IMG/VR virus record: IMGVR_UViG_3300050132_000058
Location: 1-32,317 of that record
Direction: 5' to 3' (one strand)
Source: a virus
DNA: 32,317 nt
Each line of letters opens with the position of its first letter. Position 1 is the first letter of the stretch. Position numbers and translations under genes: made by a program. Below the pieces are notes generated by a model. That model saw nothing but the letters and a program-made list of their open reading frames with translations. It searched no databases and was not told where the DNA came from. Of this stretch, positions 1 to 32,317 are shown piece by piece.

Positions 1-1134
1 ATAGGTCAGTGTGACGCGATAGGCCGGAATGCCATTGTTGGCGTCATTGCTGCGCACACGGTCGATATCCTTGATGTTCGGAAAGTTAAAGCTTGCGACC
101 GGCGCACCGCTTGGAATGTCCAGCCTGGCCATGCGCAACATGCCGAGGCGATCAAAGCCGAAGTAGGCACCGGCGCTTGGCGCCACGGCATCCATGACGT
201 TTAGCCCGGTCGAATCGTCGCATACCCAGACGCCGCACTCCGCGCTGTTGAGCGCATCCAGGGCGGTAACGTCGGTCGCCGATATATCGGCGGCGGTCAG
301 GCCCATGTCGAGCGCGATCTGTTGCAGTATCTGCGCCGTCGTGCGATTGGCAACCGTGGCGCCTTGCGATGCGTCGCAAGTCACCTGTCCGGCAGGCGAC
401 CCACCGAGACGAAAATAGCCACCGGCCGGATAGACGCGGTACTGGCCGGCTGTTGGCGCCGTCGCCTCGACGTCGGCCGACGTGGTGTAATCCGCGCCCC
501 TGACGAGTGCCAGGCCGGAATCGTAGACGTTCGATACGGTGGCGATGGCGCCGTCGTGCACTTGGTAGATCAGCTTGCTGGTGTTGCACAGGACAGGCGC
601 GAAATTGAGGGCGGTACCATACAGCTTCGGAATGGCCGTGCCTGCAATGTCGGTGGTACCGTCTTTCCCTGCTGGCAAGACGTTGGTGCCACCGTAACGA
701 TGCTGGCACAGCAGCATGTCGAGTTCCAATTGCCGATCGCGCAGAATGATCGACAAGCTCTTGTAGGTCACTTCGGCCTGCTGCATGGTGAGGCGCTGCG
801 CCACCGTGAAGCTGCTGTATGGTTGTGTCGGATCGCCGACCAGCAGGCGCAGCTTGCGCTTGTCCAGGCTGTAAGCAAGCATGTAGTCCAGCGCGCCATC
901 GACGTTTTCCAGTTCGCAAGTGCCATAGGCAACCTGCGAGCGGCCGCCGGTAGTCGCGTCCTGGTACATCATGCGCGTCAGGTTGCCAGGCTGGGTCAAG
1001 CGCGGGACGTAATGGGTCGATGCCGGCGTTTCGCCGGGTTGCGTCACGTAATTGCCGGACGCAAAATACAGCGTTTTAACGGTTCCGATAGCATCCACCG
1101 CGCAGTCAATCTCCGCCAGATAAATCATGCTCAT
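1..1134 (-). CDS. Tail distal/baseplate-type protein, partial (C-terminus beyond window)
   Basis: The frame is open from an ATG at 1134 to the left edge with no stop, giving the first 378 residues of a longer protein that starts MSMIYLAEIDC. The ATG overlaps the tape-measure stop (ATGA), so it is the next gene of the tail operon. Genes directly after the tape measure in siphophages encode distal-tail, hub or tip proteins, and this one is inferred to be such a component. I see no catalytic motif: the visible part is a soluble, beta-rich-looking sequence with no membrane segment. The plus-strand frame that overlaps it looks like a shadow. Family membership is not certain; the position, coupling and long open frame are solid. 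Confidence 0.8.
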   Translation of the reverse strand, partial: MSMIYLAEIDCAVDAIGTVKTLYFASGNYVTQPGETPASTHYVPRLTQPGNLTRMMYQDATTGGRSQVAYGTCELENVDGALDYMLAYSLDKRKLRLLVGDPTQPYSSFTVAQRLTMQQAEVTYKSLSIILRDRQLELDMLLCQHRYGGTNVLPAGKDGTTDIAGTAIPKLYGTALNFAPVLCNTSKLIYQVHDGAIATVSNVYDSGLALVRGADYTTSADVEATAPTAGQYRVYPAGGYFRLGGSPAGQVTCDASQGATVANRTTAQILQQIALDMGLTAADISATDVTALDALNSAECGVWVCDDSTGLNVMDAVAPSAGAYFGFDRLGMLRMARLDIPSGAPVASFNFPNIKDIDRVRSNDANNGIPAYRVTLTY

Positions 1135-4100
1135 GGTTTAGCCGCCTCCCGCTTCGCCTTTTTCTGGATGTCGGTCAGCGCGACATTCGACTGGCTGAGT
1201 TTGTCCAGCAACGCTTGATTGGCCGCCGACTGCAGCGTTACCAGCGCACGCAATTGCCGGGTCTGCTCCTTCAGTTCGGCCATGGTTTCCTTGCTGTCGC
1301 CGCCGGATAGAAGCTGCTTGGTCTGCGCGGCGTTAAATATCCGCGATGCGCCGGTCATTTCGAGTTCCGGCCCATTTTCACCAACGATGCGCAAGCCTCC
1401 GGCGTGATCGCCGCCGGCAGCAAAGCCCGGTACGTTGGCAACGTAAGTTAAACCATTGTTGACGCTCAGCGGATGGTGTGCCATGTACGCCGCGCCGTTG
1501 TCAAGTTCGCTCCATACCTGACCACTTGCGGCAGCGGATAGCTGTTGCGCGGTATAGGAGCTGGTGCCCGCCGCTCCGCTCGCAAACACGCCGCTGGTCG
1601 CAGACGAACCGGACGATCCGGACGTAGCGGCGGTGTAAGCTGACATTGCCGCTGCTACCGAAAGAACACTGGCGTTGATCGTAATTAAGCTCGATACCTG
1701 CGCCTGCATGACGGTCAACTGCGTTTGCGCAATGCTCACCTGTTGATTCGCGGCAGCGGTCGAGTCGGTGATTCCTTTTTGAACGGCGGCGTAGTCGTCG
1801 GCGTATGCCTGCGTGCTGGCGTTGTATGCCTTCGAGTCAGTCAAGAATTGTTGCGCAACAGTTTGCAGGTTTCCAAGCGCGGTCGGATCGCCGGTTGCGG
1901 CGGCTGCGGACGTACTTTGAAACGTCGCCTTGTCCTGGTTGTACTGCGCTTCCGGCGACAAGGTGCTGAGTGCGCCAGTCGAGAGCGATAGACCGAACGC
2001 AGTCAACGAATCGACGAACGCCTGATATTTTGTAATGGTGGCCGTCAGCGCGGTATTTTGCGCGTTATAGGCGTTCGTCAGGTTGGTTGTGGCTGTCGCA
2101 ACGGCTGTTGCCTTCGCTGCCTGCGCGGTGGCTGCGTCCTGCGCGTCATAGATGGCCTGCTGCGTGGCGAGCAGGTTGCCGGTAAGGGTAGACAGCACAT
2201 CCGAGCGCGTTGCCGCCGTATACGCCGCTGTGTTGCCCTGGGCTTGCAATAGCTGTTCGTCAAGCGCGTGCTGCGCGGCCACGGTGCTTGCCGAGGTTGC
2301 CGTGGTCAGCGCGTTGGCATTGTCTACCGCAGTGGAGAACGCACCGGACAGAGCCATCAACTGGCCGTAAAGCTTCTGGCCGGCGTCGGTGCTGGTGTCA
2401 ATGCCGGAAATCATCGCGCGGAAGCCGTCTTTTGTGGTCGGCATGCTTTCATTGAGTACGGAAAACTGGGCCGACAGGTCTTTCAATTCCGATGCCGACT
2501 GTTCGGCCGGCGTAAAGTAGTCCTTCAGGAAGTCGGACAGCCCGGTGCTCAGCTGCGACGAACCGCCAGCCCCGTTAATCATGCTCTGGCTTAAATTCAT
2601 GCCGTTGCCTGCCGTGTCGTTCATCAACTGCCGCATGGCGAGTAGGCTTGAATAGAGTGACGCGAGATCGGATGCGGCGCCGGATGCCACGGAAATTATT
2701 TTCCCCACGCCGGTAAGCGCGCCATTGGTCGCCGTTTCGACGGCATCAATACTCTGGCGCACGATCTCTGCGCCCACATCGCCTTGCTTGTTGAGGATAC
2801 CGGTGTAATTAATTGCCGTTATGCCGAACGCTTGCAATGCAACCTGGGCTTGCTCGACGCCGGTCGCCACCCGAATGACCGTATCCGTGTAGGTTTCGCC
2901 CATTTGAGCAAACACCTCCATGCCAGGCAATACGGCAGAAGTTACTTTGTCCATTGCAGCGCCGATAACGGCGTTCAATGCGGCAATTTGCGCGGTCCCG
3001 CTCAATCCCTGCAGGGAAACCTGGCTCACCGAAATGGTCGTATTCTGGATTGCCGTGCCGACATCGGTGCTGCTTTTACCCAAGGCGGTTGCAGCCGTTT
3101 GCAAAGTGGTTTGCAGGTTTTGGAATATCAGGCCGAACTGTTGCGTTACCTGGTCGGACACTGCGCCCGTCACATTGTTGGTGGTATTGCTGCCGCCGCT
3201 GAACCAGCCGCCTTTGGTATCCACGTTCTCTGTCGCATACTGCTGTACGCCGTTACCTTTTTGCAGGGATGCAACGGAGCCGCCAAACTGCAAGCCCGCA
3301 TCGGAAATAGTTGTGGATGACGAACCGAAAATATCCCCCATCAAACCACTGGATGACTTGCCGACCTGTATCCCTAAATTCAATCCGCTTGCAATAGCGG
3401 AACTGTTCCCGGATATGAGCGTCGCAACGCCGGTGACGCCGTTTTCCATGTTCTTCAGCGAGTCCGCCATTTGTGCCGTCAACGGCAGCATGGCCGACGA
3501 ATTACTGGTCAGCAGCGTCATGCTGGCAACGATGGAATCGCTCTGCTTGGCGGCATCGCCTAGAACCGTGCCGGTGCCTTGCGTTTTTTGCATTTGGGCG
3601 GCGGCGCTTGGATCGGGTGCCGACGAGCCGCTGCCGCCTACGCCTGCAATAGCAAAGCCAAGTGCCGCCATTGTCGCAACCATCGCGCCCATGCGAATCC
3701 ATGCGGTGTAAGGGTCGCCTTGGGCTTGTATGGCAACGCCTGTAGCCGCCGCCGCCGTACCAACGGCGGCACTACTCGTTACCTGCGTAATTGCGCTAGT
3801 CGCCGAAGATAATGCGGTCTGCGCATATCCCCACACCTGCAATACGGTCGATTCGTTTGCCATCAACATTTCGGCAACGCGATAGATTTGCTGGACTTCT
3901 TGCAACGCCTTGTACCCGGTCGAGCCCTTAGTGAAAAACTGTTCGGCCGCACCAGCCATGTCCGCGTAGTTTTTCATCTGCGCGACGGATGAGTCCTTGT
4001 CAAATTTAGTCTGCGCCGCTTTAATCAGGTCATACTCTTTGTCGGCACCTTCGGCGGCGGCGACACCCTTTAGATATTGGAGTTGAATGTCGTTCTGTGT

Positions 4101-6341
4101 TTTTCCGTAGTCGGTGAACGCCACCGCCATTTTCCCGATGGCCGTGCCGATGTTGCCAAACGATGAAGTCAGATCGGCTTCCATCTGCTTGGCGGCGATG
4201 CCGGCATCCTTGAACTGTTGGGTAAGCAGCCTTTGCTGCTCGACGCCTGCATCAAGGGCGGCGCCTTGCGTCGACAACCCGATTAACTCTTTACGGTCCG
4301 CAATTTCCTGATTGATATAATTCAGGCGCGCCGTATAGATGGCAAGGGATTTGTCGTCCAGTGCAGTTTTTTTGATCACGTCTTGCAGATACTGCGCATC
4401 GCTCTCCGATTGCGCTAGCTTTCCCGCGTTGATGTCCCTCAAGACCAGTTCTTTTTGCGAAGCGTTCTTTCCGATCTCGTCATTGTGCTGGCGCTGCTTG
4501 GCGATGGCCGCGTCAAGCTGCTGTGTTTCGGCGACGCCGACAGCCTGCACGGATTTGATGATGGCGTCATAGTCGGTTTTTTCATCCACAAGCTGCTTGT
4601 TTATTCCAGCGGTTTCTGCGGCGTCAGACAGCGCCTGGTTATGTTTAATGTCCTCTTCGTATCCTTGGCGCTGCGCTGCGGTCAGGCCAGAGATTTGAAG
4701 CATTTTCTGATCGAACAATGTTTTTGACGAAATGGCATCCAGCGAATTATTCGTCAGCATCGCGTCCTGCTGCGACTTGGTGATGTTGCCAAGTGCGGCC
4801 TGCGTGTTGATGTCGTCGGCAGCGGACTTGATCTTGATTTGGTCCAGCGCTTCTTGCGCCGTGATCTGGCCTTGGGTCAATGCTCTCGCATCGGCACCGA
4901 CTGCGCGTTGAGCGTCTTGGATCGCTTTCGTGGTTTGGTCGATGGCACTGCGCTTTGCCGTCTCTTGCGCAACGAAGCCAGCGCCCGGTTCGGACTTGTG
5001 CTGCTCAATCAGCGTTAAACTATCCTTCAATTCTTGAATGTGATAAGACGACGCGCTGGCCTTGATCTTATCCCATGAATCGGCCTGCAATTTATTGGCG
5101 GCGGCAGCGGCTTGTTCGGCGGCTGTCACTTCTTTTTGCTTCGCAACCAAAGGCGCCAACGCATCAATTTGCGCTTGGATGGCGACGATTGATGGGTCTT
5201 TCGTACTTACGCCACTTGCTCTCATTATGGAAATTTGATCGCGCATTCCCTGCGCTTTCTGTGCGTCGCTTTGAATCTTCCCGATGTCCATAATGGCATG
5301 ACCCAAATCCGTCCATGCTTTAATCTCTGTATTTAGCCACTGCGTTACAGTTCCGATATTTTTAGCCTGCACCGGCATGTGATCTGTCACATCCTTCGCC
5401 AACGCCAACTGCGCACCCTGCACATCGCCCAATCGTTGCAGCGTCGCGATATGCTCAATGTCCGTGGTGGTGAGAAAGTGCATGGACCGATTGAGTTCGT
5501 TTGCGCCGGCCAATGGGTCTTCAAACAGCTTAATCATGGCCGGTGCAATGGTGGCAATGTCTTGCCCTGTCGATTTTGCATAGTCGCTGGTGAATTTGGT
5601 AATCTGCTGGATCGCAGCGCCCCCAATCTTTCCGGACGCCACCAGTGCAGTGACAATCGCAGTAGAGGTACCAATCGTTACCTCCTTCGATTGCGTCATG
5701 CTGTCGGCAAGCTGCATCATGTGATCGCTGCTCATTCCGGCGTAGTTGCTGGTGACGGCCAGCGCGGTATTCATCCCGTCCTGCTCTGATTTTCCCGCCG
5801 CAAACGCCGCGTATAGGCCGATGGCTGCAGCCGTCGCGGCCAAAACGCCAAGCGTCAATGGATTGAATAGCATCGCGGTCACACCAGTGGCGTTGCCGAG
5901 TACGAGCATTGAGCTACCCATGCGAGTGTAGCTGCCGATCATGGCGTCATGAATGACGCGCATCGACTCCATTTTTGCCATGTTGGACGACATGCTGGCC
6001 GTATGATTGCCGGTTGCAGCGGTCGCGGCAGCGATCTGCGCGATCATAGGCGCAGCCTCTTCGGTCAAGCCCAACTGTGCAGCTTTCATTTCAAGCAACG
6101 CGGTCTTGTTCATTCCAACGGCCGCAGCCTGATCGCGCAAGCTATCCATATAATGGAGTTGCCCTACCGTTAATTGCGCGGTTGAGTTGCCCAGTTCCTT
6201 CTGCGCGCCGGCCATCGTCTGGCCGACATTCTCGGCTTCGGCACCCATTCTGGTAGTGGCGGCGGTGACCTGATCGATGCCGTCGACCGCAACCTTGTTG
6301 CCGTCGATATTGATCTTGATGCCTAATTCCACCTGGGTCAT
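1131..6341 (-). CDS. Tail tape measure protein
   Basis: This is the longest gene of the window, 1736 residues. Tape-measure proteins set the length of long tails and are ejected with the DNA. At about 0.15 nm per residue the length would fit a tail near 260 nm. The sequence is typical: Ala/Gln/Thr/Ser-rich, long helical and coiled-coil stretches, a hydrophobic segment at about residues 160-183 and another at about 885-910, and a low-complexity C-terminal third. The start has a good ribosome site (GAGGAAA) 5 nt upstream. It follows the G/GT chaperone frames, which is the standard order (tube, G, GT, tape measure), and its stop overlaps the next start. It replaces the sheath-tube-tape order of Mu itself, so the tail is non-contractile. 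Confidence 0.93.
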   Translation of the reverse strand: MTQVELGIKINIDGNKVAVDGIDQVTAATTRMGAEAENVGQTMAGAQKELGNSTAQLTVGQLHYMDSLRDQAAAVGMNKTALLEMKAAQLGLTEEAAPMIAQIAAATAATGNHTASMSSNMAKMESMRVIHDAMIGSYTRMGSSMLVLGNATGVTAMLFNPLTLGVLAATAAAIGLYAAFAAGKSEQDGMNTALAVTSNYAGMSSDHMMQLADSMTQSKEVTIGTSTAIVTALVASGKIGGAAIQQITKFTSDYAKSTGQDIATIAPAMIKLFEDPLAGANELNRSMHFLTTTDIEHIATLQRLGDVQGAQLALAKDVTDHMPVQAKNIGTVTQWLNTEIKAWTDLGHAIMDIGKIQSDAQKAQGMRDQISIMRASGVSTKDPSIVAIQAQIDALAPLVAKQKEVTAAEQAAAAANKLQADSWDKIKASASSYHIQELKDSLTLIEQHKSEPGAGFVAQETAKRSAIDQTTKAIQDAQRAVGADARALTQGQITAQEALDQIKIKSAADDINTQAALGNITKSQQDAMLTNNSLDAISSKTLFDQKMLQISGLTAAQRQGYEEDIKHNQALSDAAETAGINKQLVDEKTDYDAIIKSVQAVGVAETQQLDAAIAKQRQHNDEIGKNASQKELVLRDINAGKLAQSESDAQYLQDVIKKTALDDKSLAIYTARLNYINQEIADRKELIGLSTQGAALDAGVEQQRLLTQQFKDAGIAAKQMEADLTSSFGNIGTAIGKMAVAFTDYGKTQNDIQLQYLKGVAAAEGADKEYDLIKAAQTKFDKDSSVAQMKNYADMAGAAEQFFTKGSTGYKALQEVQQIYRVAEMLMANESTVLQVWGYAQTALSSATSAITQVTSSAAVGTAAAATGVAIQAQGDPYTAWIRMGAMVATMAALGFAIAGVGGSGSSAPDPSAAAQMQKTQGTGTVLGDAAKQSDSIVASMTLLTSNSSAMLPLTAQMADSLKNMENGVTGVATLISGNSSAIASGLNLGIQVGKSSSGLMGDIFGSSSTTISDAGLQFGGSVASLQKGNGVQQYATENVDTKGGWFSGGSNTTNNVTGAVSDQVTQQFGLIFQNLQTTLQTAATALGKSSTDVGTAIQNTTISVSQVSLQGLSGTAQIAALNAVIGAAMDKVTSAVLPGMEVFAQMGETYTDTVIRVATGVEQAQVALQAFGITAINYTGILNKQGDVGAEIVRQSIDAVETATNGALTGVGKIISVASGAASDLASLYSSLLAMRQLMNDTAGNGMNLSQSMINGAGGSSQLSTGLSDFLKDYFTPAEQSASELKDLSAQFSVLNESMPTTKDGFRAMISGIDTSTDAGQKLYGQLMALSGAFSTAVDNANALTTATSASTVAAQHALDEQLLQAQGNTAAYTAATRSDVLSTLTGNLLATQQAIYDAQDAATAQAAKATAVATATTNLTNAYNAQNTALTATITKYQAFVDSLTAFGLSLSTGALSTLSPEAQYNQDKATFQSTSAAAATGDPTALGNLQTVAQQFLTDSKAYNASTQAYADDYAAVQKGITDSTAAANQQVSIAQTQLTVMQAQVSSLITINASVLSVAAAMSAYTAATSGSSGSSATSGVFASGAAGTSSYTAQQLSAAASGQVWSELDNGAAYMAHHPLSVNNGLTYVANVPGFAAGGDHAGGLRIVGENGPELEMTGASRIFNAAQTKQLLSGGDSKETMAELKEQTRQLRALVTLQSAANQALLDKLSQSNVALTDIQKKAKREAAKP

Positions 6342-6788: not shown

Positions 6789-7123
6789 GTCTTGGCGCCC
6801 GCGATTGAGGCGAAAAAGGTTTTAACGAGGGTCGGCCGCACCGGGAACACGTCCAGCAAGGCGGCGAGGTTCTTATCGTTAAACTCCAGGACAGTGCCAT
6901 CCTCATCCTGCACATCGCTCCAGCCGACCATGACTTCGTCGATCAAGCCGCTATCGGTCAGCTCCTTTGCAGCCAGGCGATCGCTTACGCCATCCAGTTC
7001 GCTCTGCGACAGGCGCTTGAATACGGCACCAAACGCTTTCGGTACCGTCTTGCCGTTGTCGGACGGAATGTCAACTTTCACCTGGGCGGTGTATGTGGGA
7101 TTGGTTGCGATTTTGAATGCCAT
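6779..7123 (-). CDS. Tail assembly chaperone G
   Basis: A 114-residue acidic protein starting MAFKIATNPTY and ending GAKTKN. It sits between the tail tube gene and the tape measure, the invariant place of the lambda G-type chaperone, and carries the frameshift site at its 3' end. The beta-rich N-terminus, the stretch LSQSELDGVSDRLAAKE and the C-terminal hydrophobic helix LVKTFFASIAGA suit that family. It is preceded by AAAGGAAA about 8 nt before the ATG. The unshifted product should be far more abundant than the GT fusion. Assignment rests on position and architecture rather than on a recognised motif. Confidence 0.82.
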   Translation of the reverse strand: MAFKIATNPTYTAQVKVDIPSDNGKTVPKAFGAVFKRLSQSELDGVSDRLAAKELTDSGLIDEVMVGWSDVQDEDGTVLEFNDKNLAALLDVFPVRPTLVKTFFASIAGAKTKN

Positions 7124-8164: not shown

Positions 8165-8375
8165 TCTTCTTCTCCTTCAGAGGTTTAACGGGTTGCGTAG
8201 CTGGATCGGTTGCGCTGGCATCGTCGGCGGCGGGGTTGACCGTGACGGCGAGATCGGGAGCGATACTCTCGTCATCCGGGGGTGCCGGGGTGCGCAGGCC
8301 GGTCGCCGGATCGACGACATAGCGACCGCCCATTCCCCAGTACTGGCAATTCGTAAAATCCTGCAAACTGTTCAT
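8157..8375 (-). CDS. Small tail-operon protein (gp38/DUF2635-like position)
   Basis: 72 residues from ATG 8375 (MNSLQDFTNCQYWG); its start overlaps the end of the tail terminator gene and its end overlaps the tube start by 8 nt. It has a short N-terminal part with the phrase VDPATGLRTPAP and a Pro/Ala/Asp-rich disordered tail ending in KEKKNV. Mu places its small gp38 (DUF2635) here, and the VDPxTG phrase is reminiscent of that family, but the resemblance is weak. The role is unknown. The longer reading upstream of 8375 is ignored because it runs into the preceding gene. Confidence 0.65.
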   Translation of the reverse strand: MNSLQDFTNCQYWGMGGRYVVDPATGLRTPAPPDDESIAPDLAVTVNPAADDASATDPATQPVKPLKEKKNV

Positions 8376-8794
8376 AAAACGCTCCTGTCGATATACGACG
8401 TTAAATAAATGTCCTGCCACCACATGTGGCCGTCTTTGAATGCCAGCAGCCCGCTGCGGCCGCGCTCGAGCGGGTCATATCCTCCTGGCGGTTGCCAGCC
8501 CAGCAAAGCCGCCTTGACCGCCTGGCGCAGCGTCTCCATGTCCTGTCGGGCAGCGACGCCCTTGCTATCGGAGAGATTGCGCACCACCAGGATCACGCCT
8601 AGCGTGACCGCCACGCGTTGAATGACCAGGTCACCCATCGCGCTGACTCCTGGGTTCTCTTCCAACGGAATCACGAAAGCGGCCGGCGTTGCCCTCGGGT
8701 TGCTTTCGGCCGCATTCTGGAACTGGGCCGCACCGCCAACCTGCTTGAACGCGGCACCGCTGGCTTCCAGGTGTGCAATCACGTCGTCTATCAT
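8372..8794 (-). CDS. Mu gp37-like protein (DUF1834), likely tail terminator
   Basis: 140 residues, starting MIDDVIAHLEASGAAFKQV. The helix followed by beta strands with AFVIPLEENPG and VTLGVILVVRN matches the general pattern of DUF1834/minor tail proteins that cap the tail tube at the head-tail junction. It lies right after the gp36-type gene, as in Mu, and is coupled to it by an ATGA overlap. The family call is by pattern and order, so moderately sure. Confidence 0.75.
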   Translation of the reverse strand: MIDDVIAHLEASGAAFKQVGGAAQFQNAAESNPRATPAAFVIPLEENPGVSAMGDLVIQRVAVTLGVILVVRNLSDSKGVAARQDMETLRQAVKAALLGWQPPGGYDPLERGRSGLLAFKDGHMWWQDIYLTSYIDRSVL

Positions 8795-12785: not shown

Positions 12786-12943
12786 AATATCTGAGGGGTG
12801 CCGATGACAGCAGCAATCCCCAACAAGGCCGTTAAAGCCCCGTTAATCGCCCGCTAAATGAATCCCATGCGGAATCGCACCCACCTACTTCTTTAAATCG
12901 CGCCACGCCCCCGTTACGCAAATTCTCGCGTCAACGCGTCGAC

Positions 12944-23504: not shown

Positions 23505-24137
23505 TCAGACCGCTGCAATGTCGAGGCTGATCGGCGCATACTGTTCGGTATCGCCTACGCGTTCGTAAAAGCGGACGTACTGCTTGCTGCCGACGATCTG
23601 CACCGACTCCCCGATGGCCGTCATGGCGCGCTGCCAGCGTTCATCCTTGATGTCCAGACGGCGCAGGCCGAGGATGCGGCCGGTATTCAGGTTGCCCTCT
23701 TTGTCGGTCTGGAAGGCATCCTGCACCAGCACCTGGATTTCCGGCCGGCTACCCTGGCTCCATTCGTTGATGCATTCGTCGATCAGCGCCTTTGCCGCCT
23801 GCAGGCGTTCGTCCAGGACAATGTTGTCGGCGATGGCCACTTGCACCTTGTAGCGGCCGTCATAGCTGTACAGAGTGACGTTGCCTTTCTTGCCGCCTAA
23901 ATTGGCGCCGTACTGCTCGGCAGACAATTGCACGAAGGCTGCTACGTCGCCGAATACGCGCCCCTTGAATGCAACCATTTGCAGGCTCATCGTTTTGGCG
24001 GCAGCGACCAACTCTTGCGTTAAAGTGTCACGCGCCATTTCGATTGGCTTGATCAGCGACTCCGGAACCAGGTGGCCGCGTGCATCTTGGCGATAGCCTG
24101 TCGGGATGGTTGTGTTTTGTTCTGTGCTGGTATTCAT
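23505..24137 (-). CDS. DUF3164 family protein
   Basis: 210 residues. The phrases TGYRQDARGHLVPESLIKP, GGKKGNVTLYSYDGRYKVQV and SRPEIQVLVQDAFQTDKEG are the conserved blocks of DUF3164, found in the early regions of many Mu-like phages and of unknown biochemical function. Residues of the last block (GRILGLRRLDIKDERWQRAM) are also typical. The start overlaps the previous gene by ATGA. Confidence 0.9.
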   Translation of the reverse strand: MNTSTEQNTTIPTGYRQDARGHLVPESLIKPIEMARDTLTQELVAAAKTMSLQMVAFKGRVFGDVAAFVQLSAEQYGANLGGKKGNVTLYSYDGRYKVQVAIADNIVLDERLQAAKALIDECINEWSQGSRPEIQVLVQDAFQTDKEGNLNTGRILGLRRLDIKDERWQRAMTAIGESVQIVGSKQYVRFYERVGDTEQYAPISLDIAAV

Positions 24138-24730
24138 TGTGTTGCCTCTCTTTTGGTGAGTTTGTTTAATTGCTCTCTGACGTGTTGCGGCATAGCCTTC
24201 TTTGGAAGCGCGGCATCAAGCTTGACCGGGCCACCCTGCAGAACTACTGCAGGGCGATCCGGCGCCGTGCCGTGTCCAGCATGGCCAGCCCGTTGCTGCT
24301 CTTTCTTGGCTTCGGCCGCGCCTTCGCTCTTGTCGGCATAGCCCATGACGATTGTCAACAGATAGCCATGCGACGTTAAAGGCAGACGCAAGCCGCTGCT
24401 ACCGTGGGCGCGCTGGACGACTTCTTCCATGGCTTGCCGCCAGTAGTCCAGCGGTGCCGGCCAGACGCGCCCGCCGCGCTCCAGTGTCGCTGGCCGGATC
24501 ATCTCGACCAGCTCATTCGACAAACTCGCGACCCGCTCATACCGCAGCGCGGTTTTAGCCGGAGCAAACAGCGTGATGTACGACAGCAGCGGCCGCAGCA
24601 GCTTGCGTCCCTCGGCGTGGGCGTTGACCAGGGCCAGCATGGCGTCGCGCACCCCCTGGTGGGCGAATACCACGTCCCAGGTCAACGGATTGCGGCAGAC
24701 CGGGCAATCGAAGGTTGGCAGGTGCGACAT
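24134..24730 (-). CDS. Early protein with N-terminal CPxC motif, unknown
   Basis: 198 residues. The start MSHLPTFDCPVCRNPLTWDVVF has a CPVC knuckle with no second Cys pair close by, followed by a helical region (RDAMLALVNAHAEGRKLLRPLLSYITLF) and a basic C-terminus (LPKKAMPQHVREQLNKLTKR). I know related proteins only as hypothetical genes of Mu-like early operons. The TGATG junction with the upstream gene (one shared base) shows coupling. Confidence 0.78.
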   Translation of the reverse strand: MSHLPTFDCPVCRNPLTWDVVFAHQGVRDAMLALVNAHAEGRKLLRPLLSYITLFAPAKTALRYERVASLSNELVEMIRPATLERGGRVWPAPLDYWRQAMEEVVQRAHGSSGLRLPLTSHGYLLTIVMGYADKSEGAAEAKKEQQRAGHAGHGTAPDRPAVVLQGGPVKLDAALPKKAMPQHVREQLNKLTKREATQ

Positions 24731-25686: not shown

Positions 25687-26196
25687 TCATGCGACCTCCA
25701 TTTGCACTTGCGGCCCGCCCACTACCGGCAACGGCAGCGTGACTTTGTCGATAATGCCGGCTTGCTGCCGGCCATCGGTAACCGGCACCTTGCACGGCTT
25801 GGCTACGACCGGCGCCGGCACCGCCGCCTTGACGCGCTTCGAACAGCCCTGACATGCGCGCCAGTGCTGCATTTCTCGCGGGCTGTTGGTCGGCGGGTTG
25901 GTGCGATAGGCAAACTCGCGACATTGCAAGCCAGTGATCCGATGTTCTGCGCAGTGGTATTCGGAAAGAAAAGGGCATGCCACCATACCGATAGTGTTCA
26001 TGACCTTTTCTTCCACCTTGGCGGTGCTGGCCTTACCATTGACGTAAGGCGAGGTTGCAGTCCGGTTCAGAATCGCCGACAACAGACCGCGCGAGACACC
26101 CGCACGTAGCGCTGTTTTATTGATGCTGCCGGTAGCGGCGACATCGGCGCGCACGATCGCGACCCACTCGGCTTCCGGTTTAGCGCTTAGCGTCAT
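25687..26196 (-). CDS. Helix-turn-helix protein with Cys-rich C-terminus
   Basis: 169 residues from ATG 26196, overlapping the upstream gene by 17 nt. The N-terminal region AATGSINKTALRAGVSRGLLSAILN is a helix-turn-helix of the Cro/resolvase sort. After a linker, Cys residues occur in VACPFLSEYHC, LQCREF and ACQGC, five in a spacing that could bind a metal. Proteins of this two-part design occur in early regions of Mu-like phages. The role is presumably regulatory. Confidence 0.78.
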   Translation of the reverse strand: MTLSAKPEAEWVAIVRADVAATGSINKTALRAGVSRGLLSAILNRTATSPYVNGKASTAKVEEKVMNTIGMVACPFLSEYHCAEHRITGLQCREFAYRTNPPTNSPREMQHWRACQGCSKRVKAAVPAPVVAKPCKVPVTDGRQQAGIIDKVTLPLPVVGGPQVQMEVA

Positions 26197-26797
26197 ATTG
26201 TTTTTCCTCGTTCTGGTCGAATACCTTTTGCTGCTTGGGCTGCGGGATCGGCGGCAACCGGCCTGTGTCGCGTACCAGCAAAAAACGCTTGGCGCCGTTG
26301 GAGGTCGGTGATTGCGGTGCCTCACGCCGCATCAGAACCAAGTAGCCGGCCAGTTCCAACTGACGCATGTATTTGTTCAGGTTATTTTTCATGCGCTCGA
26401 CCGTCGCGACGTCGCTGCCGGCATCCAGCAGTAGCCCGATCAGCTCCGGCACGCTGGCCTTGCGCCGAATGCGCAGCGAACGCCATGCGCGATCCCGCAC
26501 GGTATCGGTGCATGCCTTGGCTTTGCCGCTTGGTCCCTTTGGGCCGCTGATCAGCCTGGCGCCTTCTTCCTGTGCCGCCCGGCCGAGCGCGGTCAGCTTG
26601 TAGCAACCCGGCTTGACCGAGTCGTCCGCATAGATTTCGCGCTCCATGTAGCCATGCTCGACCAACTTGGTACAGGCGTTGGCGACCTGCCTGCCGGTCA
26701 ACTTGGTATGCATGACAATGGCATCATGTTTAACGCAGCCATGCGGACAGACCAGCGATTTAACGGCATCCATCACGGCTTGGGATGTCCAGATCAT
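26180..26797 (-). CDS. Winged-helix DNA-binding-like protein
   Basis: 205 residues. The N-terminal part (VMDAVKSLVCPHGCVKHDAI, LTGRQVANACTKLVEHGYME) is a winged helix: helix, turn, recognition helix and a basic wing (REIYADDSVKPGCYKLT). A second helical unit (AWRSLRIRRKASVPELIGLLL, YMRQLELAGYLVLMRRE) repeats the pattern. It is a likely phage early regulator. The start overlaps the preceding gene by ATGA. Confidence 0.8.
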   Translation of the reverse strand: MIWTSQAVMDAVKSLVCPHGCVKHDAIVMHTKLTGRQVANACTKLVEHGYMEREIYADDSVKPGCYKLTALGRAAQEEGARLISGPKGPSGKAKACTDTVRDRAWRSLRIRRKASVPELIGLLLDAGSDVATVERMKNNLNKYMRQLELAGYLVLMRREAPQSPTSNGAKRFLLVRDTGRLPPIPQPKQQKVFDQNEEKQYDAKR

Positions 26798-26988
26798 TGC
26801 GCATCCTCCGCCATGATTGTGACGACGGTGCCGATATCTCCGCAGTTACTCCTTATCTGCACGTCACCAACAAATGACCATTCCTTGTACATGCCCAACC
26901 CGGCGTGATTCATTGAATGTGTGACCAGCATCACCGGGCAATGTGGGGGAAGGCACTGCAGTTCCTTGATGAGTTCGCCGTTTGTCAT
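26794..26988 (-). CDS. Small early protein, unknown
   Basis: 64 residues from ATG 26988 (MTNGELIKELQCLPPHCPVM), overlapping the B-gene stop as ATGA. The sequence (PPHCPVMLVTHSMNHAGLG, GDIGTVVTIMAED) is a compact alternating-strand pattern. The product is unrecognised. The 15-codon upstream extension lies in gene B and is not used. Confidence 0.72.
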   Translation of the reverse strand: MTNGELIKELQCLPPHCPVMLVTHSMNHAGLGMYKEWSFVGDVQIRSNCGDIGTVVTIMAEDAQ

Positions 26989-27719
26989 CTTGCACCTCCC
27001 ACACGTGGCCGACGCGCCTGCCATTCGATGCACAGTTCCATGCCCTTGAACGCTTCGGCGGTTGCCTTATCCAGGCTATTCGCTCTGGCGATGCGCTCGA
27101 TGGTGGCGATGCCATTCATCACCAGGCGCATCTTGCCCTCACTCTGGCGGTGCAGTTTGCGCTGCAGATCGGGAGCAATCTCGACCTCGGCCAATTGTTT
27201 GCAGGTCAGTTGAATGTCTTGCTCGGTCAGCGTCTGGAAATGCACGACCTGGGCGACTCGGCTGCTGATCTGCGGATAACGGGCGATGCGCGATTCGATG
27301 GTTTCCATTCCCACCAGCACCACCAGCGTTTCCGTTAAATCGCTGATGTCGCGCACACATTCCAGAATGCTGGCGGTCGAGCGCACCGTGAACTCGGCTT
27401 CGTCGATGATGATCGGCGTTTGCCGTGCACCGATGGCGCCGATGATGCGCGCCTGCATTTCGTGATTGGTGGCATTGGTCTGGATGCGTAGCGTATCGGC
27501 CATTTCGGACAACAGGCCGCGCTTGGTCCATGTTTCCTTGGCGCGCAGATAGACGGCATTGGTGTCGACCGCGAAACGATCCACCGTTTCGCTCTTGCCC
27601 AAACCTGCAGGGCCGGTGACCAGCATCAGCGACGCCTCTCGTGCGCCGCGCTGCTCGACCGCCTTGACGGCTTGCAGGAACCTCGCGTAATTGCTGTTTT
27701 GAACAAATCCCTTTTTCAT
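26985..27719 (-). CDS. B: Transposition target-DNA activator ATPase (MuB-like)
   Basis: 244 residues, shorter than Mu B (312). It has the AAA+ ATPase motifs GPAGLGKS (Walker A, 36-43), TPIIIDEAEF (Walker B, D106/E107) and a sensor-like LVVLVGMETI. The C-terminus (PDLQRKLHRQSEGKMRLVMNGI) resembles the MuB/TniB/ExeA family. MuB-type proteins coat target DNA with ATP and deliver it to the transposase; the missing N-terminal part would remove the non-specific DNA-binding helix-turn-helix seen in Mu B, so this is nearer TniB and D3112-like B. AAGGAG lies 5 nt before the ATG. A tandem repeat and a hairpin separate it from gene A. Confidence 0.92.
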   Translation of the reverse strand: MKKGFVQNSNYARFLQAVKAVEQRGAREASLMLVTGPAGLGKSETVDRFAVDTNAVYLRAKETWTKRGLLSEMADTLRIQTNATNHEMQARIIGAIGARQTPIIIDEAEFTVRSTASILECVRDISDLTETLVVLVGMETIESRIARYPQISSRVAQVVHFQTLTEQDIQLTCKQLAEVEIAPDLQRKLHRQSEGKMRLVMNGIATIERIARANSLDKATAEAFKGMELCIEWQARRPRVGGAR

Positions 27720-27771: not shown

Positions 27772-27784
27772 ACTGCATCAATCC

Positions 27785-27814
27785 GGCTGTCTGACGTTCC
27801 AGCGTCAGACAGCC
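27785..27814 (-). other. 12-bp perfect hairpin containing the transposase stop codon
   Basis: GGCTGTCTGACG and CGTCAGACAGCC pair over 12 bp with a 6-nt loop. The transposase stop TGA is inside the stem. There is no T tract downstream on the minus strand, so simple termination is unlikely; it may slow readthrough or protect the A message and so set the A-to-B ratio. Confidence 0.8.
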
Positions 27815-30216
27815 ACCTTAAAAATTTCCTCGCCAGATAGTTCAGCCTCTTCGGCCGCTCCCCAGGAGATATCGAGCAATTCAAAGCGATCTGCCAATTG
27901 GGCATAGTCTTGCGGATCGTCGATATAACCTCTTAGGAAGCGTTTATCGGCCTCGTTCCAGTTACCGCGCCGCTGCATCAGCCATTCGTAGTGCTCGCTG
28001 TCGACTGGGAAAAGCGGACGGGCCTCGCTCGCCTCATTCGGCTGCTCGTTGATCGGCGCGGCCAGCGTCAGCGCCTCAAACTCGCCGACCAGGTTCAACG
28101 TTGGGCTGGGAATGTTTTCCAGTGCGGCGGGTGCTTCGTAAATGTCCCGCTTCGGCGCACCTTGCAGTTCTTCCAGCACTTCCTCGCGTTTCACGTCTAG
28201 TCGGCTCAGACGGCCTTCGCTTCGCTTGCGCGCCGCTTGATCCAGGAACGTCTCAGGGAAGTAGTCGCGCTTGTTGGCCTCGAAGCCGGCGCTGCACACA
28301 AATCGGCCTTTCTCGTCGTACACCCACACGCTATCGGCGTTGTGGATGTCGTAGGCCACACGCACGATGTCGCCGTGGTATTCGGTCAGTTCGTTGGAGA
28401 AATACAGATTGTTAAACAAGCGCACTTCGCCGCGCAGCACTTTGACTTCCTTCATCGGGCGGAACAGCTCCAGCGATTGCTCCGGCGTGATGGTGACCAG
28501 TTGCGCGCCCGCTTCAACGCCCTCTATCCATGACTCGTTGGGTGTCATGTGCCGCTTCCTGCCCAGCTCGGCGTCGTAGATCATTTTCAGGCTACGATGC
28601 GGCCGGTTGTTGTATCGTTCGGCGTGGTCTTTAACGAACTCCAGAAACCGTTGCCACGGCATCAGGTATTTGCTGACGCCGCTGGTCTTGATGTCTTTGC
28701 GGGTAATCTTGAACACCTTGTTTTTTGCCTCTGCATCCATGTCCTTGCCCATGTAGGTCGGCAATTCCTTGGCGGCACGTACCCAGATATCCCTGTGGCC
28801 TTTTTCCACGATCCCGCGCGCCTGCGAGTTGTAAGCAATCGAGTGTGTCATCGTGAACCCGAGGCGACTTTCCATGCCGATGCCTGGTTGGCTCATCATT
28901 GCGTTCTTGTAGCCAGAACCGTTATCGACATAGAAAATGCTGCATATCCCGCCCGTTTCGCAGGCATGCCGAATCGCATCCAGCACCGCCAGTCCACTTT
29001 CGGCCAGATCGATGCTCCAGCCGACCACCTTGCGCGTGGCGGTGTCGCGCACAGTCGTAATTTCTGGCCGGAATGGCCTGCCGTGCGCCGGATGCGCCAC
29101 TTCGGCATCGAACGCGTGGCCATCGGCGGTATACACGTCGGCAGGCCACAGCATGCTGCTGTCGCGACGGACAAATGGCTTGACGTTCTTGATGTCGCGC
29201 GCACCCATGCGCCCGGCCATCGATTCGACGTTGCCCATTTTTTCGATGAAGCGGCGGGCCTGGTGATATAGACATTCTTCGTCAATGCCGTATCGCTGAT
29301 ATATCTGCTCTACCGCCCAGCGCAGGCTAGGCTTTTGCGGGCGCTGGAATTGCGCCAACAGGTCAGCCGCCCACACCGGAATTTTCGTGACGGCATGTTG
29401 ATCCTTGGGAGCCAGCGCATTGACTGCGCGAGTGCTACCGGCTTCGCTGTTCGCCTTGCAGATTGCGAACCAGTCGTACAGGGTGCGGCGGCTCAAGCTG
29501 CGCTTGCCGTCCCGACCTGATCGGGCGTTTGCTATCGGCACCAGTTGCGCAAGGTGTTCCGGCAAGGTGCCGTCCTGCGCCATGATGCTGACCTTTTGAA
29601 TCGCCTTTTCGCGCCCGACCACTTGGGCGACTCGGTCGACCTCGCGCAATATGGCCATGCGAGCTTCGGCGGTACGCTTCTGCCAGTCTTTTAACGCAGT
29701 GGCCTGTACCCGTAACGCACCTGACTCAGCCGGGACAAACTCAACGGTCCCGTGAATCCGTTTCTGCGATGTAAGCGCGATGCTGTGTTGTACAGGCTGT
29801 GTCGGTTGATGTGCGCCAGGTAAAAGGGCGAACTTCCCATAAATTCTCTGTTTATTTTCCGATCCTGCCAACCTGCTTTCGGAGTGCGAAATCTCCCTAC
29901 CGCTGTTCTCACCATGCATCCCTTTCGCACCAAGTGTGCGCGATCCTTGGCTATTCTTGCTTTCGATAGAAACGGCTTGATCATGTTTTTCTCCTGTCAG
30001 TAATTGTTGTACTAGGTGGCCCTTGATGGACTCCATAACGTCGGGTGGTGGCGCATACTCTCGGCGCGTGCCGCCGATCCCTTTGGTCCGAACATACGCC
30101 CAGCCCTCGCGCTCTGCCTTTGCTAACGCTTTTCCTTTGCTTGTCGGTATACCCGGCAATCGCATTACAGCAAGCTCTGCCGCGCTGTAGTGGGTCTTGA
30201 TGACAACCTGACTCAT
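27805..30216 (-). CDS. A: Transposase A (MuA-like DDE recombinase)
   Basis: 803 residues from ATG 30216, which overlaps the upstream stop as ATGA; the 93 codons further up in frame are a shadow. Mu A is 663. Residues 1-60 are a Mu-type DNA-binding winged helix (YSAAELAVMRLPGIPTSKGK, GIGGTRREY). A linker to about 170 is Ser/Lys/Gly-rich and unusually long. Further DNA-binding helices follow, and then the DDE core with D365 (YTADGH), D431 (YVDNGSGYK) and E471 (GIVEKGHRD); after it come a beta-barrel part and an acidic C-terminus for contact with B and ClpX. It performs donor cleavage and strand transfer at the phage ends. Confidence 0.96.
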   Translation of the reverse strand: MSQVVIKTHYSAAELAVMRLPGIPTSKGKALAKAEREGWAYVRTKGIGGTRREYAPPPDVMESIKGHLVQQLLTGEKHDQAVSIESKNSQGSRTLGAKGMHGENSGREISHSESRLAGSENKQRIYGKFALLPGAHQPTQPVQHSIALTSQKRIHGTVEFVPAESGALRVQATALKDWQKRTAEARMAILREVDRVAQVVGREKAIQKVSIMAQDGTLPEHLAQLVPIANARSGRDGKRSLSRRTLYDWFAICKANSEAGSTRAVNALAPKDQHAVTKIPVWAADLLAQFQRPQKPSLRWAVEQIYQRYGIDEECLYHQARRFIEKMGNVESMAGRMGARDIKNVKPFVRRDSSMLWPADVYTADGHAFDAEVAHPAHGRPFRPEITTVRDTATRKVVGWSIDLAESGLAVLDAIRHACETGGICSIFYVDNGSGYKNAMMSQPGIGMESRLGFTMTHSIAYNSQARGIVEKGHRDIWVRAAKELPTYMGKDMDAEAKNKVFKITRKDIKTSGVSKYLMPWQRFLEFVKDHAERYNNRPHRSLKMIYDAELGRKRHMTPNESWIEGVEAGAQLVTITPEQSLELFRPMKEVKVLRGEVRLFNNLYFSNELTEYHGDIVRVAYDIHNADSVWVYDEKGRFVCSAGFEANKRDYFPETFLDQAARKRSEGRLSRLDVKREEVLEELQGAPKRDIYEAPAALENIPSPTLNLVGEFEALTLAAPINEQPNEASEARPLFPVDSEHYEWLMQRRGNWNEADKRFLRGYIDDPQDYAQLADRFELLDISWGAAEEAELSGEEIFKVAV

Positions 30217-30698
30217 GCCGCCATCCCGAAAAGTTCCAGTTCCGGTTCCCCAGTCTTGATGACATTGCTGCGTTGGTAGGCGACCTGCGACAGCGTCTTG
30301 GTAAGCGCCGCGACCGTAGCATCGACCGCATCGCCGTTCTGATAAAAACGCGCCAGCAGGGCCATCGCCTCCGCAAAGCAGCACTGCACTTCCGCTAGTT
30401 CGGTCACATCGGCCTTCTTTCCTGCGGGAATTTCGATCACGACCTTGTTGCCATGCGCCAAACAAAGGTAATCGCTGACTAGCGAAATGCCGCAAAAAGT
30501 TTCAAATTGCCGGACGCGGTTTAACGGCATGGAGTTCTCGGACAACCACCGGTAAAGGGTCTTGATCTCGACGCCCATCAGGTCGGCCAGCACCTTGGTC
30601 GTGCGACGCTGTTCGGCGGCAAACTCGACGCACAAGTCCATCGCCTCGGACAAGCTGGTCGGGCGTACCGACTTCCATCGTCTTTTTCTTATTGTCAT
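30213..30698 (-). CDS. CII/Ner-neighbour DNA-binding early regulator
   Basis: 161 residues. GGAGACGAAAAA precedes the ATG. The N-terminal segment EFAAEQRRTTKVLADLMGVEIKTLYRWLSENSMPLNRVRQFE is a helix-turn-helix with the recognition helix IKTLYRWL. The C-terminal part (ALLARFYQNGDAVDATVAALTKTLSQVAYQRSN) is helical. It lies between the Ner-like gene and transposase A. Such proteins are found in B3-like early regions and are presumably regulators of early transcription; the name is not known to me. Confidence 0.82.
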   Translation of the reverse strand: MTIRKRRWKSVRPTSLSEAMDLCVEFAAEQRRTTKVLADLMGVEIKTLYRWLSENSMPLNRVRQFETFCGISLVSDYLCLAHGNKVVIEIPAGKKADVTELAEVQCCFAEAMALLARFYQNGDAVDATVAALTKTLSQVAYQRSNVIKTGEPELELFGMAA

Positions 30699-30753
30699 TT
30701 TTTCGTCTCCGGGAAACGCGGGTGTGGCGCTTTAGTGCGTCGCGGCATAAGAT

Positions 30754-31068
30754 TCAACCAATGGCAGCAGCGTTGGCAACACGGCGGGGGCCGGAAGAGC
30801 GTAATGAAGTGGTTAAAACCGGCGTAAAATTACGCTTTGCATAACGTGTTGGCCAGATGTCCTCGGCCTTCATGTTTAACGCGCTGGCAATGATGGCTTC
30901 TCCCTTCGGATAGGGACGGCTTAACGCCTGCGTAAGCGTGCCGGGACCGTACCCGCTTTGCCGCGACAGTTCGCGCAAAGACCAGCCTGCTTTATGCAGG
31001 GCAGCAACGATGTCCGCTCTATGCCAATCGGCTTCGGCGGTTTTTTTTGGGGTGTTAGATACATGCAT
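30754..31068 (-). CDS. ner: Ner-like early regulator
   Basis: 104 residues. The sequence TPKKTAEADWHRADIVAALHKAGWSLRELSRQSGYGPGTLTQALSRPYPKGEAIIASAL is a full Ner/Nlp (SfsB) helix-turn-helix: it starts DWH-ADI, has a basic recognition helix, and carries the PYPKGE motif. Ner limits early transcription and the c promoter in Mu. AGGAG lies 7 nt before the ATG. It is the first gene of the early operon and is divergent to c. Confidence 0.94.
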   Translation of the reverse strand: MHVSNTPKKTAEADWHRADIVAALHKAGWSLRELSRQSGYGPGTLTQALSRPYPKGEAIIASALNMKAEDIWPTRYAKRNFTPVLTTSLRSSGPRRVANAAAIG

Positions 31069-31271
31069 GGTTAACTCCTGTTTGGTGAATTTATAAGTGT
31101 ATCTTAAGAGTTCCTAAGTATTCCGTCAATGCTTTTTTGAAGGAATACTTAATTTTCCTAAGCGCGACGGGGAAATTTTATATCCCATTGATTTATATGT
31201 GTATTTTTAAGTGTTCCCTCATTTATTGCCTGCTACATTGATGGAACGCTTTAGGCGAGGTAAGTATTCCC
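31069..31271. promoter_or_regulatory. c-ner control region with six operator copies
   Basis: This is the divergent gap between ner and c. The 11-mer TTAAGTATTCC or close variants appears six times: plus at 31104-31114 (TTAAGAGTTCC), 31114-31124 (CTAAGTATTCC), 31207-31217 (TTAAGTGTTCC) and 31260-31270 (GTAAGTATTCC); minus at 31142-31152 (a perfect copy) and 31243-31253 (weaker). The first two are one helix turn apart and cover the early promoter. The last lies just before the c start codon and could let c limit its own synthesis. The arrangement is that of the Mu O1-O3 operators for the c repressor. Confidence 0.8.
31094..31129 (-). promoter_or_regulatory. Early promoter for ner-A-B operon
   Basis: On the minus strand, TTGACG (31129-31124) is followed after 17 nt by TAAGAT (31106-31101), a good sigma-70 promoter (5 of 6 and 4 of 6 matches). 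Transcription would begin near 31094, leaving a short leader before ner at 31068. Two operator copies (31104-31124) lie exactly on the spacer and -10, so c binding should shut it. I could not pick a convincing c promoter on the plus strand. Confidence 0.8.
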
Positions 31272-31850
31272 ATGAAAAAGCTCTATTCCGCGTCAGAGAT
31301 CGCTGCGATGCATTTGCCCGACCTTCCAGCCACGAAGGCAAGAGTTATTGATCGGGCGACCGGCGAAGGTTGGCCGTATGAGGAAAAAAAGGGACTTGGT
31401 GGCACGCGTCGCATGTATGAAATACCTACGCGATACCTGGCGGAGCGTGCCATGTTGAATGTCCGTCATGCGACAAACGCCGCGACTGAAGTCGCATTAC
31501 AGTACGGGCCACTCAGCAAAACCCTGCGTCTGGAGATGCAAGAGGTCGCATTTAACGAAAACCTCGACACTAATCAGCTGATGGAGCGTTTTAAGGATCG
31601 CCTGCCGCAGCCGGTGGTCGCTGAACCCGGTGTTGCGCCAGGGAAGGTAATTGCCACGATAGCGGCCGGTACGAAGGTCGACCCGGCCATTCTGGAGCGG
31701 ATCATTCGGATAATGGATGAAATAGTGGTAGAGCAGGGTCGTGAGTGGGTGCCTGAGCGCAAGGCTGCGTTCATTGCCGTGCTGTATGACTATCTTGCAA
31801 AAGGTGCGGACGAGAATGACGTTAAAACGCTGCTTAGGGCCATCCAATAA
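31272..31850 (+). CDS. c: Mu-type c repressor
   Basis: 192 residues, the first plus-strand phage gene, reading away from ner toward the phage left end as in Mu. Residues 4-60 (LYSASEIAAMHLPDLPATKA, GWPYEEKKGLGGTRRMYEIP) are a Mu DNA-binding winged helix clearly homologous to the start of transposase A (YSAAELAVMRLPGIPTSKGK, GWAYVRTKGIGGTRREYAPP), which explains how repressor and transposase can share operator DNA. The rest is a helical dimerisation and regulation part. The expected role is to hold the lysogen by binding the six operators at 31104-31270. Confidence 0.93.
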   Translation: MKKLYSASEIAAMHLPDLPATKARVIDRATGEGWPYEEKKGLGGTRRMYEIPTRYLAERAMLNVRHATNAATEVALQYGPLSKTLRLEMQEVAFNENLDTNQLMERFKDRLPQPVVAEPGVAPGKVIATIAAGTKVDPAILERIIRIMDEIVVEQGREWVPERKAAFIAVLYDYLAKGADENDVKTLLRAIQ

Positions 31851-32317
31851 TGCGAATTTGCCATACCTGTCATTTCTGACAGGTACTATTTCCACTGGGA
31901 ATTGTTACAATTGGTAAATTTTTTGCCATGCCAACAAAAAATGACAACATGGACGCCCGCTTGAGGCGTTTTTTTAACGATGCCACCAGGGCAACCGTCG
32001 ATACCACCCTGCAATGCCTTCAACGAACCCAACTTGGATGCCATCTGCAAGGTGTGAAGGCGGCAAACGAATCTGCCTATGCCTCACCAGCAAGCCGGGC
32101 AAGGCCTTACAGAATAAAAAAAGGACCATCCCGTGGCCCCTTAAGTGCAGAATCCCGCGCTAATTTTCATGTTTACGGTGCATTTCGTCGTTTTTATTTG
32201 CGTTGTTCCAAAATGGCTAAATCCCCCTGCAAACTCAATACTAGCGCGGCTTTTCCCGCTTTATTCCACATCTTCCCATGTGCAGAAGCACTCACCCCCT
32301 CACATCTGCTCGATGCC
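31851..32317. other. Phage left-end region; no confirmed gene
   Basis: The phage left end should lie here beyond c. Seen are an inverted repeat ACCTGTCA-TTTC-TGACAGGT (31865-31884), possibly a weak c terminator or a binding site, and two related 25-bp segments beginning TTTGCCAT and ending TGACA (31857-31881, 31922-31946), spaced 65 bp. From ATG 31928 a plus frame (MPTKNDNMDARLRRFF...) stays open for 130 codons to the edge. It has no clear ribosome site and unremarkable codon use, so whether it is a gene or host flank is open. No end or target duplication can be shown because the other end is outside the window. Confidence 0.5.
31928..32317 (+). CDS. Possible partial gene running off the window
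   Basis: A frame open to the edge, 130 codons from ATG 31928, with no matching motif or family. The first half is charged (Asp/Arg/Asn-rich); the second has a short Cys/Phe-rich stretch (FRRFYLRCSKMAK). A 130-codon open run is not expected often by chance at this composition but can occur in 500 bp. No good ribosome site precedes it (only GGTAAA, 13 nt away). It may be a chance frame across the phage end and host DNA. Confidence 0.25.
   Translation, partial: MPTKNDNMDARLRRFFNDATRATVDTTLQCLQRTQLGCHLQGVKAANESAYASPASRARPYRIKKGPSRGPLSAESRANFHVYGAFRRFYLRCSKMAKSPCKLNTSAAFPALFHIFPCAEALTPSHLLDA

Follow-up and report, generated by a model that had tools for sequence, protein, structure and literature searches.

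A short heptamer, CGTTAAA, recurs throughout the window analysed here (32,317 bases, the whole of IMG/VR contig IMGVR_UViG_3300050132_000058), which covers part of the genome of a Mu-like transposable phage. We found that this heptamer serves as half-site in a conserved central pair: two direct copies at a spacing of 11 bp (CGTTARnnnnnCGTTAR), with normally a single such pair in a genome. A preliminary description, made from the letters of the window, had reported the dispersed copies; the pair is new relative to it. Judging from sequence, we consider it possible rather than probable that a DNA-binding protein, most likely one with tandem winged-helix domains, recognises CGTTARA (CGTTAAA or CGTTAGA) as its half-site, and that the pair would organise the phage genome, with the scattered sites serving to coat, loop or mark its DNA. 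The pair may offer a counterpart of the Mu central site beyond Mu, with a defined sequence and a candidate phage protein as its reader.

A conserved pair of half-sites at mid-genome

The 11-bp same-strand pair first appeared as a feature common to five phages, among them the distant Rhizobium phage RR1-B. Of 45 records, 30 have it, G334 twice and the other 29 a single time (reversed control, 1 of 45). Among 17 named phages there are 7 with the pair, three being part of the first count as well (reversed control, 0 of 17). In total, 34 of 57 different Mu-like records carry it in syntenic position. In the window, it lies between a MuG-like and a protease-like gene (Table 1), and in seven complete named phages it falls at 0.505–0.566 of the genome. 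Scattered copies are not needed for its presence: G256, RcapMu, G006, G009 and JBD30 (only four CGTTAGA) have the pair without them, and variant pairs occupy a comparable place in some other records, for example G012 and G328. When 38 elements were read out, no flanking letter was common to more than 23. The sixth letter of the pair agreed with that of the scattered copies in eight of nine phages with the A-form (CGTTAAA) and in nine of nine with the G-form (CGTTAGA) for which both were known. Relative to the transposase, the pair is on the same strand in 25 of 34 records and on the opposite strand in 9, and it flips among close relatives; it is therefore hardly a fixed promoter element.

We also scanned viral contigs, using DNA alone, for CGTTAGAn4CGTTAGA (at least 80 loci) and for the control AGATTGCn4AGATTGC (80 loci). 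A MuG- or protease-like gene lay within 1.5 kb of the pair in 51 of the 80 loci listed, and both genes did so in 32, compared with none of the 80 control loci (Fisher 5e-21). The distance to the MuG-like match was 70–130 bp in 33 of these 51 listed loci. Neither gene was found within 1.5 kb in the other 29 of the 80 listed, some of which may be chance matches. The viral contigs L317 (6318 and 6405) and L324 (2125 and 2249) each have two CGTTAGA pairs, 87 and 124 bp apart, and no match to MuG or the protease was seen in their vicinity. A near-pair in Kp4866-3 was dropped because it is part of an inverted repeat.

Strict enrichment of the heptamer in the window

CGTTAAA occurs exactly 28 times in the window, 16 times on the plus and 12 times on the minus strand, at precisely the positions that the preliminary description had read out by eye. 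Its estimate of two to four copies by chance also agrees with our expectations of 2.2, 2.7, 2.0 and 4.1 under Markov orders 0–3, although these are simple models. Across 100 dinucleotide shuffles of the window, the mean was 2.71 (s.d. 1.82, maximum 9), and none reached 28. The heptamer ranks first among 7,024 7-mers under an order-2 model. Under an order-5 model it falls outside the top 12, since GTTAAA and CGTTA, both contained in it, rise along with it, and we regard that model as uninformative here. The motif is strict: each one-letter neighbour has 0–8 copies, summing to 0.92 of expectation, and no base outside the heptamer is conserved among the window copies.

At a density of about one per thousand bases, the positions are compatible with a uniform spread (KS p 0.26). 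In our gene set, 25 of the 28 copies lie inside genes; those at 12830 and 31973 are intergenic, and that at 1075 lies where no gene was called. Read on the coding strand, 10 genic copies are CGTTAAA and 15 are TTTAACG. The copies use all four stop-free combinations of strand and phase, which bears out the view that the signal resides in the DNA and not in the protein. The codon pattern described earlier was retained with different counts: 11 copies use the Leu codon TTA, 7 encode Val-Lys and 7 Phe-Asn, rather than 12, 8 and 6. There are 48 TTA codons in the gene set, so the heptamers account for 11 of 48.

An orientation bias switching near 25–26.5 kb had also been proposed. The counts behind it (14 to 4 on the left, 2 to 8 on the right) are right, and the best split is unusual for the window, with 3 of 200 shuffles as low. 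In nine relatives, by contrast, 14 to 195 of 200 shuffles were as low, and the switch is therefore not a property of the system. Overall, the earlier reading of a DNA signal that is a trait of the phage stood, and the orientation switch did not.

A phage trait with two main forms

Equal enrichment in host DNA would have made the heptamer a host trait. In the host flanks of 45 prophage loci, CGTTAAA occurs 16 times against 17.9 expected and CGTTAGA 6 times against 7.6. On the phage sides of the same loci, the counts are 103 against 49.5 and 113 against 24.4. For whole host genomes, where only CGTTAAA was counted, it was rarer than its reversed control in 12 of 12. We thus reject a host trait as the source of the heptamer. 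DNA uptake sequences and Chi are strict short motifs that recur about once per kb and override codon choice. The heptamer resembles them in each of these respects and differs in being phage-specific, with no enrichment in host chromosomes.

The nearest relative, G001 (G002 is the same DNA), has 39 CGTTAAA; its transposase is 70% identical to that of the window, and blocks of its DNA are 66–78% identical. Of 16 window sites in alignable DNA, nine are unchanged in G001, compared with 65 of 376 composition-matched control 7-mers (Fisher 7e-4); sites are thus kept, but also gained and lost. Further counts came from prophages found through their transposase in the host family of Duganella G018 (294 genomes, 23 with any match): 59 copies in G147 (5.0 expected), 63 in G019 (6.3), 34 in G018 (2.4) and 27 in G190 (1.2), all counted in fixed stretches of 36.5–38.5 kb. 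G190 and G322/L128 are the same DNA and were counted once. In G256, whose host belongs to the family of the G018 host, there are two copies, and three more distant prophages have 7, 0 and 1.

CGTTAGA replaces CGTTAAA in Acinetobacter-type phages, RR1-B and others, in which CGTTAAA is not raised. It is present in 28–32 copies in G005, G349, G333 and G330, and in 16 copies in 26 kb of RR1-B. The heptamer is the top-ranked 7-mer in 11 phage sequences, six with the A-form and five with the G-form. Among 145 loci of at least 6 kb, which include the same DNA from two collections and are not independent, 13 were enriched for the A-form at p<1e-4, 23 for the G-form, 28 weakly and 81 for neither. A-forms are found mostly in phages of Betaproteobacteria, and G-forms mostly in gamma- and alphaproteobacterial phages. 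On a quick transposase tree, presence or absence of enrichment required at least 11 changes and the form 2. No gene family separated the motif classes among 146 sequences, in a greedy gene set that missed some overlapping genes. In a partial survey of the open-access literature, we noticed no description of this heptamer or of a dispersed motif in transposable phages.

Among the scattered sites, two spacings stand out: 11 bp, which is that of the central pair and was seen in five phages, and 21 bp, seen in 12 phages; 11 of the latter 12 are Acinetobacter-type, with the spacing at a similar place, and there are too few independent cases to claim phasing. In four Acinetobacter-type phages (L055 at 9658 and 9681, and relatives), facing CGTTAGA sites lie 23 bp apart upstream of the transposase. 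A third form, CGTTACT, is suggested by AGTAACG (7 against 0.3 in L113; 6 against 0.5 in L109) and GCGTTAC (15 against 0.8 in L113).

A tandem winged-helix protein as candidate reader

A strict, asymmetric heptamer calls for a protein that reads bases. The gene that follows tniB in the window encodes a protein (PHROG 2030) for which AlphaFold predicted two winged-helix domains (residues 4–78 and 100–174) joined by a loose linker (mean pLDDT 90.7, pTM 0.61). Foldseek with this model returned generic winged-helix and MarR-like matches only, and six family members had no Pfam family above cut-off. In the G001/JBD30 subtype, the two domains are homologous to each other (hhalign 97.5%, E 8e-12, from 15 hand-picked members). 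As modelled, this architecture would suit two direct half-sites one turn apart.

The protein is encoded in 48 of the 57 Mu-like records; the nine without it are B3, SuMu, Mu, Kp4866-3, 3927AP2, TJ1, KS10, BalMu-1 and FP_Mushu. The strict pair occurs in 34 of the 48 and in none of the nine (Fisher 9e-5, in a test that ignores shared descent). Among Pseudomonas aeruginosa phages, B3 has neither pair nor protein, and DMS3, JBD30, Ab30, Gregale and Cline have both. Of the first 50 of at least 80 contigs picked by the pair, 24 encode the protein at E<1e-30, compared with none of 50 controls.

Several observations weigh against this protein as the reader. At E<1e-3, it was detected in 25 of the 50 pair contigs and also in 4 of the 50 controls (best control 3e-21). 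It is encoded by 79 of 81 relatives without marked enrichment, and 14 of the 48 records that have it lack the strict pair, although some carry variants. Mu has a near-pair without it. The window and G001 proteins are only 22% identical, yet both phages use CGTTAAA; this divergence, together with Ner as a second candidate, lowers our confidence. L148, classed as A on four copies, breaks the sixth-letter agreement with the pair CGTTACA/CGTTACT. The association tests all ignore shared descent, by which covariation of letter six with protein columns was likewise confounded, making it uninformative.

Two further phage proteins were considered as readers. DUF3164 was rejected, as the G018 copy has no BLAST relative in RR1-B, L192, L160 or L129, all strongly motif-bearing. 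TniB copies are divergent (window 27% and G001 52% identical to G018); we did not count this against TniB, because the same objection fits the winged-helix protein.

Relation to the strong gyrase site of Mu

The gap in Mu that matches the location of the pair holds the strong gyrase site (SGS), with its cut site annotated at 17,879. The mutations through which this site came to light reportedly lie close to genes G and I; the site cannot do without its right arm, and just one of the other sites tried worked, which came from a closely related Mu-like prophage (PMC10052514). Pair and SGS have in common that each is present once, in intergenic DNA between G and I and close to the middle of the genome. 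The best match to the pair in the Mu gap, CGTTAAAtaccGGTTTAA (12 of 14 letters, 17,916–17,933), lies to the right of the cut and is equalled in 7 of 400 random Mu stretches; pair and Mu site may therefore be related in sequence. Best matches in the gaps of SuMu, 3927AP2, B3, KS10 and TJ1 reached 10–11 of 14 letters, equalled by 15 to 241 of 400 random stretches. The pair differs from the SGS in being a defined direct repeat around which hardly any further sequence is shared; its strict form goes with a phage gene that Mu lacks, and in some lineages its half-sites are scattered genome-wide.

Proposed function and alternative explanations

We infer the following steps. The winged-helix protein would bind in tandem at the central pair, on half-sites one helical turn apart, and keep the middle of the phage genome in place, a role that in Mu falls to the gyrase site. 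From there, it could organise the DNA for replicative transposition, with arms and ends brought together. In the lineage of the window and several others, single half-sites across the genome may allow this protein to cover the phage DNA or draw it into loops; the DNA would then be marked as self and form a poor target for its own insertion. The evidence points in the direction of a possible replication or target-choice role, as raised in the preliminary description.

Scattered half-sites that mark self would bear on genome immunity, for which MuB is only partly responsible in Mu (PMC7350765). There, too, a replicating transposable phage must avoid self-insertion, and phage DNA forms a separate domain (PMC7350765, PMC3820752); the portions of these papers used here describe no sequence mark for Mu, whereas the heptamer is a candidate mark. 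A full self-recognition code, in which one phage protein reads CGTTARA, the pair seeds a domain and 30–60 half-sites mark the genome as self, seems unlikely to us, but if true it would mean that genome immunity in a transposable virus can rest on a specific sequence. In the P. aeruginosa relative Ab30, which has the pair at 19,639, 0.4% of insertions fall into its own genome (PMC5977238). The self-insertion-free stretch reported there, at 18,736–18,772 (PMC5977238), is not the pair, which counts against the proposed function. Together with the candidate site and its candidate reader, natural relatives with and without genome-wide copies open two questions to experiment: which element takes the place of the Mu gyrase site elsewhere among transposable phages, and by what means such a phage avoids its own DNA while it replicates.

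The most serious rival reader is host DNA gyrase, for which the pair would be a strong gyrase site and the scattered heptamers extra affinity sites that speed supercoiling. The shared G–I gap (PMC10052514), the near-match in Mu right of the cut in the absence of a winged-helix gene, and the division of A- and G-forms mostly by host class all favour it. Nevertheless, a 7-mer without tolerated neighbours does not resemble the phased bending signals known from the right arm of Mu, the pair is missing from B3, which shares its host with DMS3 and JBD30, and from Burkholderia phage KS10, and 7 of 400 random Mu stretches match the pair as well as the near-match does, so we judge gyrase somewhat unlikely. 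It is rather unlikely that another phage protein, either Ner or the N-terminal domain of the transposase or related repressor, reads the heptamer at internal sites. Transposases are common to all these phages, and Ner is 64–70% identical among G018, G019, G147, G190, the window, G001 and L128, whose transposases are 40–56% identical to that of G018. However, G256 has a close Ner (63%) and two copies, L129 and L048 have many copies and a distant Ner (41 and 38%), the gap between ner and the repressor gene in the window carries another repeat, and Mu and SuMu have both proteins without the strict pair. Transposase end sites were rejected, as ten Acinetobacter-type prophage ends are built of ATTYTGCACT units; heptamer-like words stand beside the end units in one prophage each (CGTTAAA in L061, CGTTAAT in L064).

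Control of transcription, with dispersed repressor or road-block sites and the pair as a late-promoter element, would suit the label of PHROG 2030 as a transcriptional regulator and the location of the pair upstream of the protease gene. A known system of this kind is found in L5-type mycobacteriophages, temperate phages whose genomes are dotted with numerous short, asymmetric stoperators. Stoperators, however, share one orientation relative to transcription and are largely intergenic. Here, the heptamers lie mostly within genes in both orientations. Together with the flipping pair and its lack of other common flanking letters, this makes transcriptional control improbable. The ner-repressor gap (31069–31271), itself only a likely operator position judged from its AAGTATTCC copies, contains no CGTTA. 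A motif driven by the host, through uptake, recombination or defence, and gathered by phages of some hosts would fit the clustering of strong enrichment in few host groups; with hosts not enriched, two copies in G256 despite its sharing a host family with G018, and a pair that marks phages rather than hosts, it is highly improbable. Chance, codon usage or a repeated protein motif could draw on the order-5 model, under which the heptamer is not exceptional, but is refuted by the shuffles, the use of all four open phases and recurrence across independent phages, and we give it virtually no chance.

Other features of the window and of related phages

In the window, a MuA-like transposase, MuB/TniB, GemA and Mor were recognised, as were Ner and a Mu-type repressor candidate; the names of further late-region genes come from synteny with named phages. 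Most genes run leftwards. The window lacks the left part of the phage and both phage ends. AAGTATTCC or its complement occurs three times, always in the ner-repressor gap, where the copies are likely to form the operator set.

Table 1 Heptamers, genes and other elements located in the window
Feature	Position	Strand	Evidence or remark
Half-site CGTTAAA	1075–1081	-	sequence count
Half-site	1331–1337	+	sequence count
Half-site	5013–5019	+	sequence count
Half-site, unchanged in G001	6821–6827	-	count and alignment
Half-site, unchanged in G001	6877–6883	+	count and alignment
Half-site	8184–8190	-	sequence count
Half-site, unchanged in G001	8399–8405	+	count and alignment
Protease-like gene	11097–12239		flanks central pair
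Central pair CGTTAAAgcccCGTTAAT	12830–12847	+	intergenic, between MuG-like and protease-like genes
MuG-like gene	12944–13543		flanks central pair
Half-site, unchanged in G001	14684–14690	+	count and alignment
Half-site, unchanged in G001, faces 15089	15059–15065	+	count and alignment
Half-site, unchanged in G001	15089–15095	-	count and alignment
Half-site	17104–17110	+	sequence count
Half-site	17541–17547	+	sequence count
Half-site, unchanged in G001	18281–18287	+	count and alignment
Half-site	19520–19526	+	sequence count
Half-site	20811–20817	+	sequence count
DUF3164 gene (PHROG 846)	23505–24137		name from B3 record
Half-site	24018–24024	+	sequence count
Half-site	24374–24380	+	sequence count
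Candidate reader, two winged-helix domains (PHROG 2030)	26180–26797	-	E 2.8e-29; AlphaFold model
Half-site within winged-helix gene	26729–26735	-	sequence count
Half-site within winged-helix gene	26759–26765	-	sequence count
TniB/MuB-like AAA+ transposition protein	26985–27719	-	recognised in the window
Half-site	27333–27339	+	sequence count
MuA-like transposase, start codon not settled	27805–30390	-	recognised in the window
Half-site	28630–28636	-	sequence count
Half-site, unchanged in G001	29690–29696	-	count and alignment
Half-site	30520–30526	-	sequence count
Ner-like regulator, further candidate reader	30754–31068	-	similarity
Half-site, unchanged in G001	30875–30881	-	count and alignment
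ner-repressor gap	31069–31271	.	without CGTTA; AAGTATTCC at 31116, 31142 and 31262
Repressor candidate, weak match to Mu-type DNA-binding domain	31272–31850	+	similarity
Half-site	31551–31557	-	sequence count
Half-site	31820–31826	+	sequence count
Half-site, intergenic	31973–31979	-	sequence count

The gap that holds the central pair also contains, on the opposite strand, a gene for a small lipoprotein-like product (12354–12737, plus strand); in JBD30, DMS3 and Ab30, the same gap holds anti-CRISPR genes. Left prophage ends were readable by comparison in L055, L056, L057, L059, L061, L064, L069, L070, L092 and L154, each with a TGTGA start and three ATTYTGCACT units. Other enriched octamers were TCCTGACA in G012 (L034, L035; 15 against 1.2 expected) and CGTCAGGA in RcapMu (L200; 10 against 1.2). 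In a transposable prophage of Neisseria sp. 83E34 (L119, 8200–21800), GTCTGAA, which we take to be part of the Neisseria uptake sequence, occurs 17 times against 1.3 expected.

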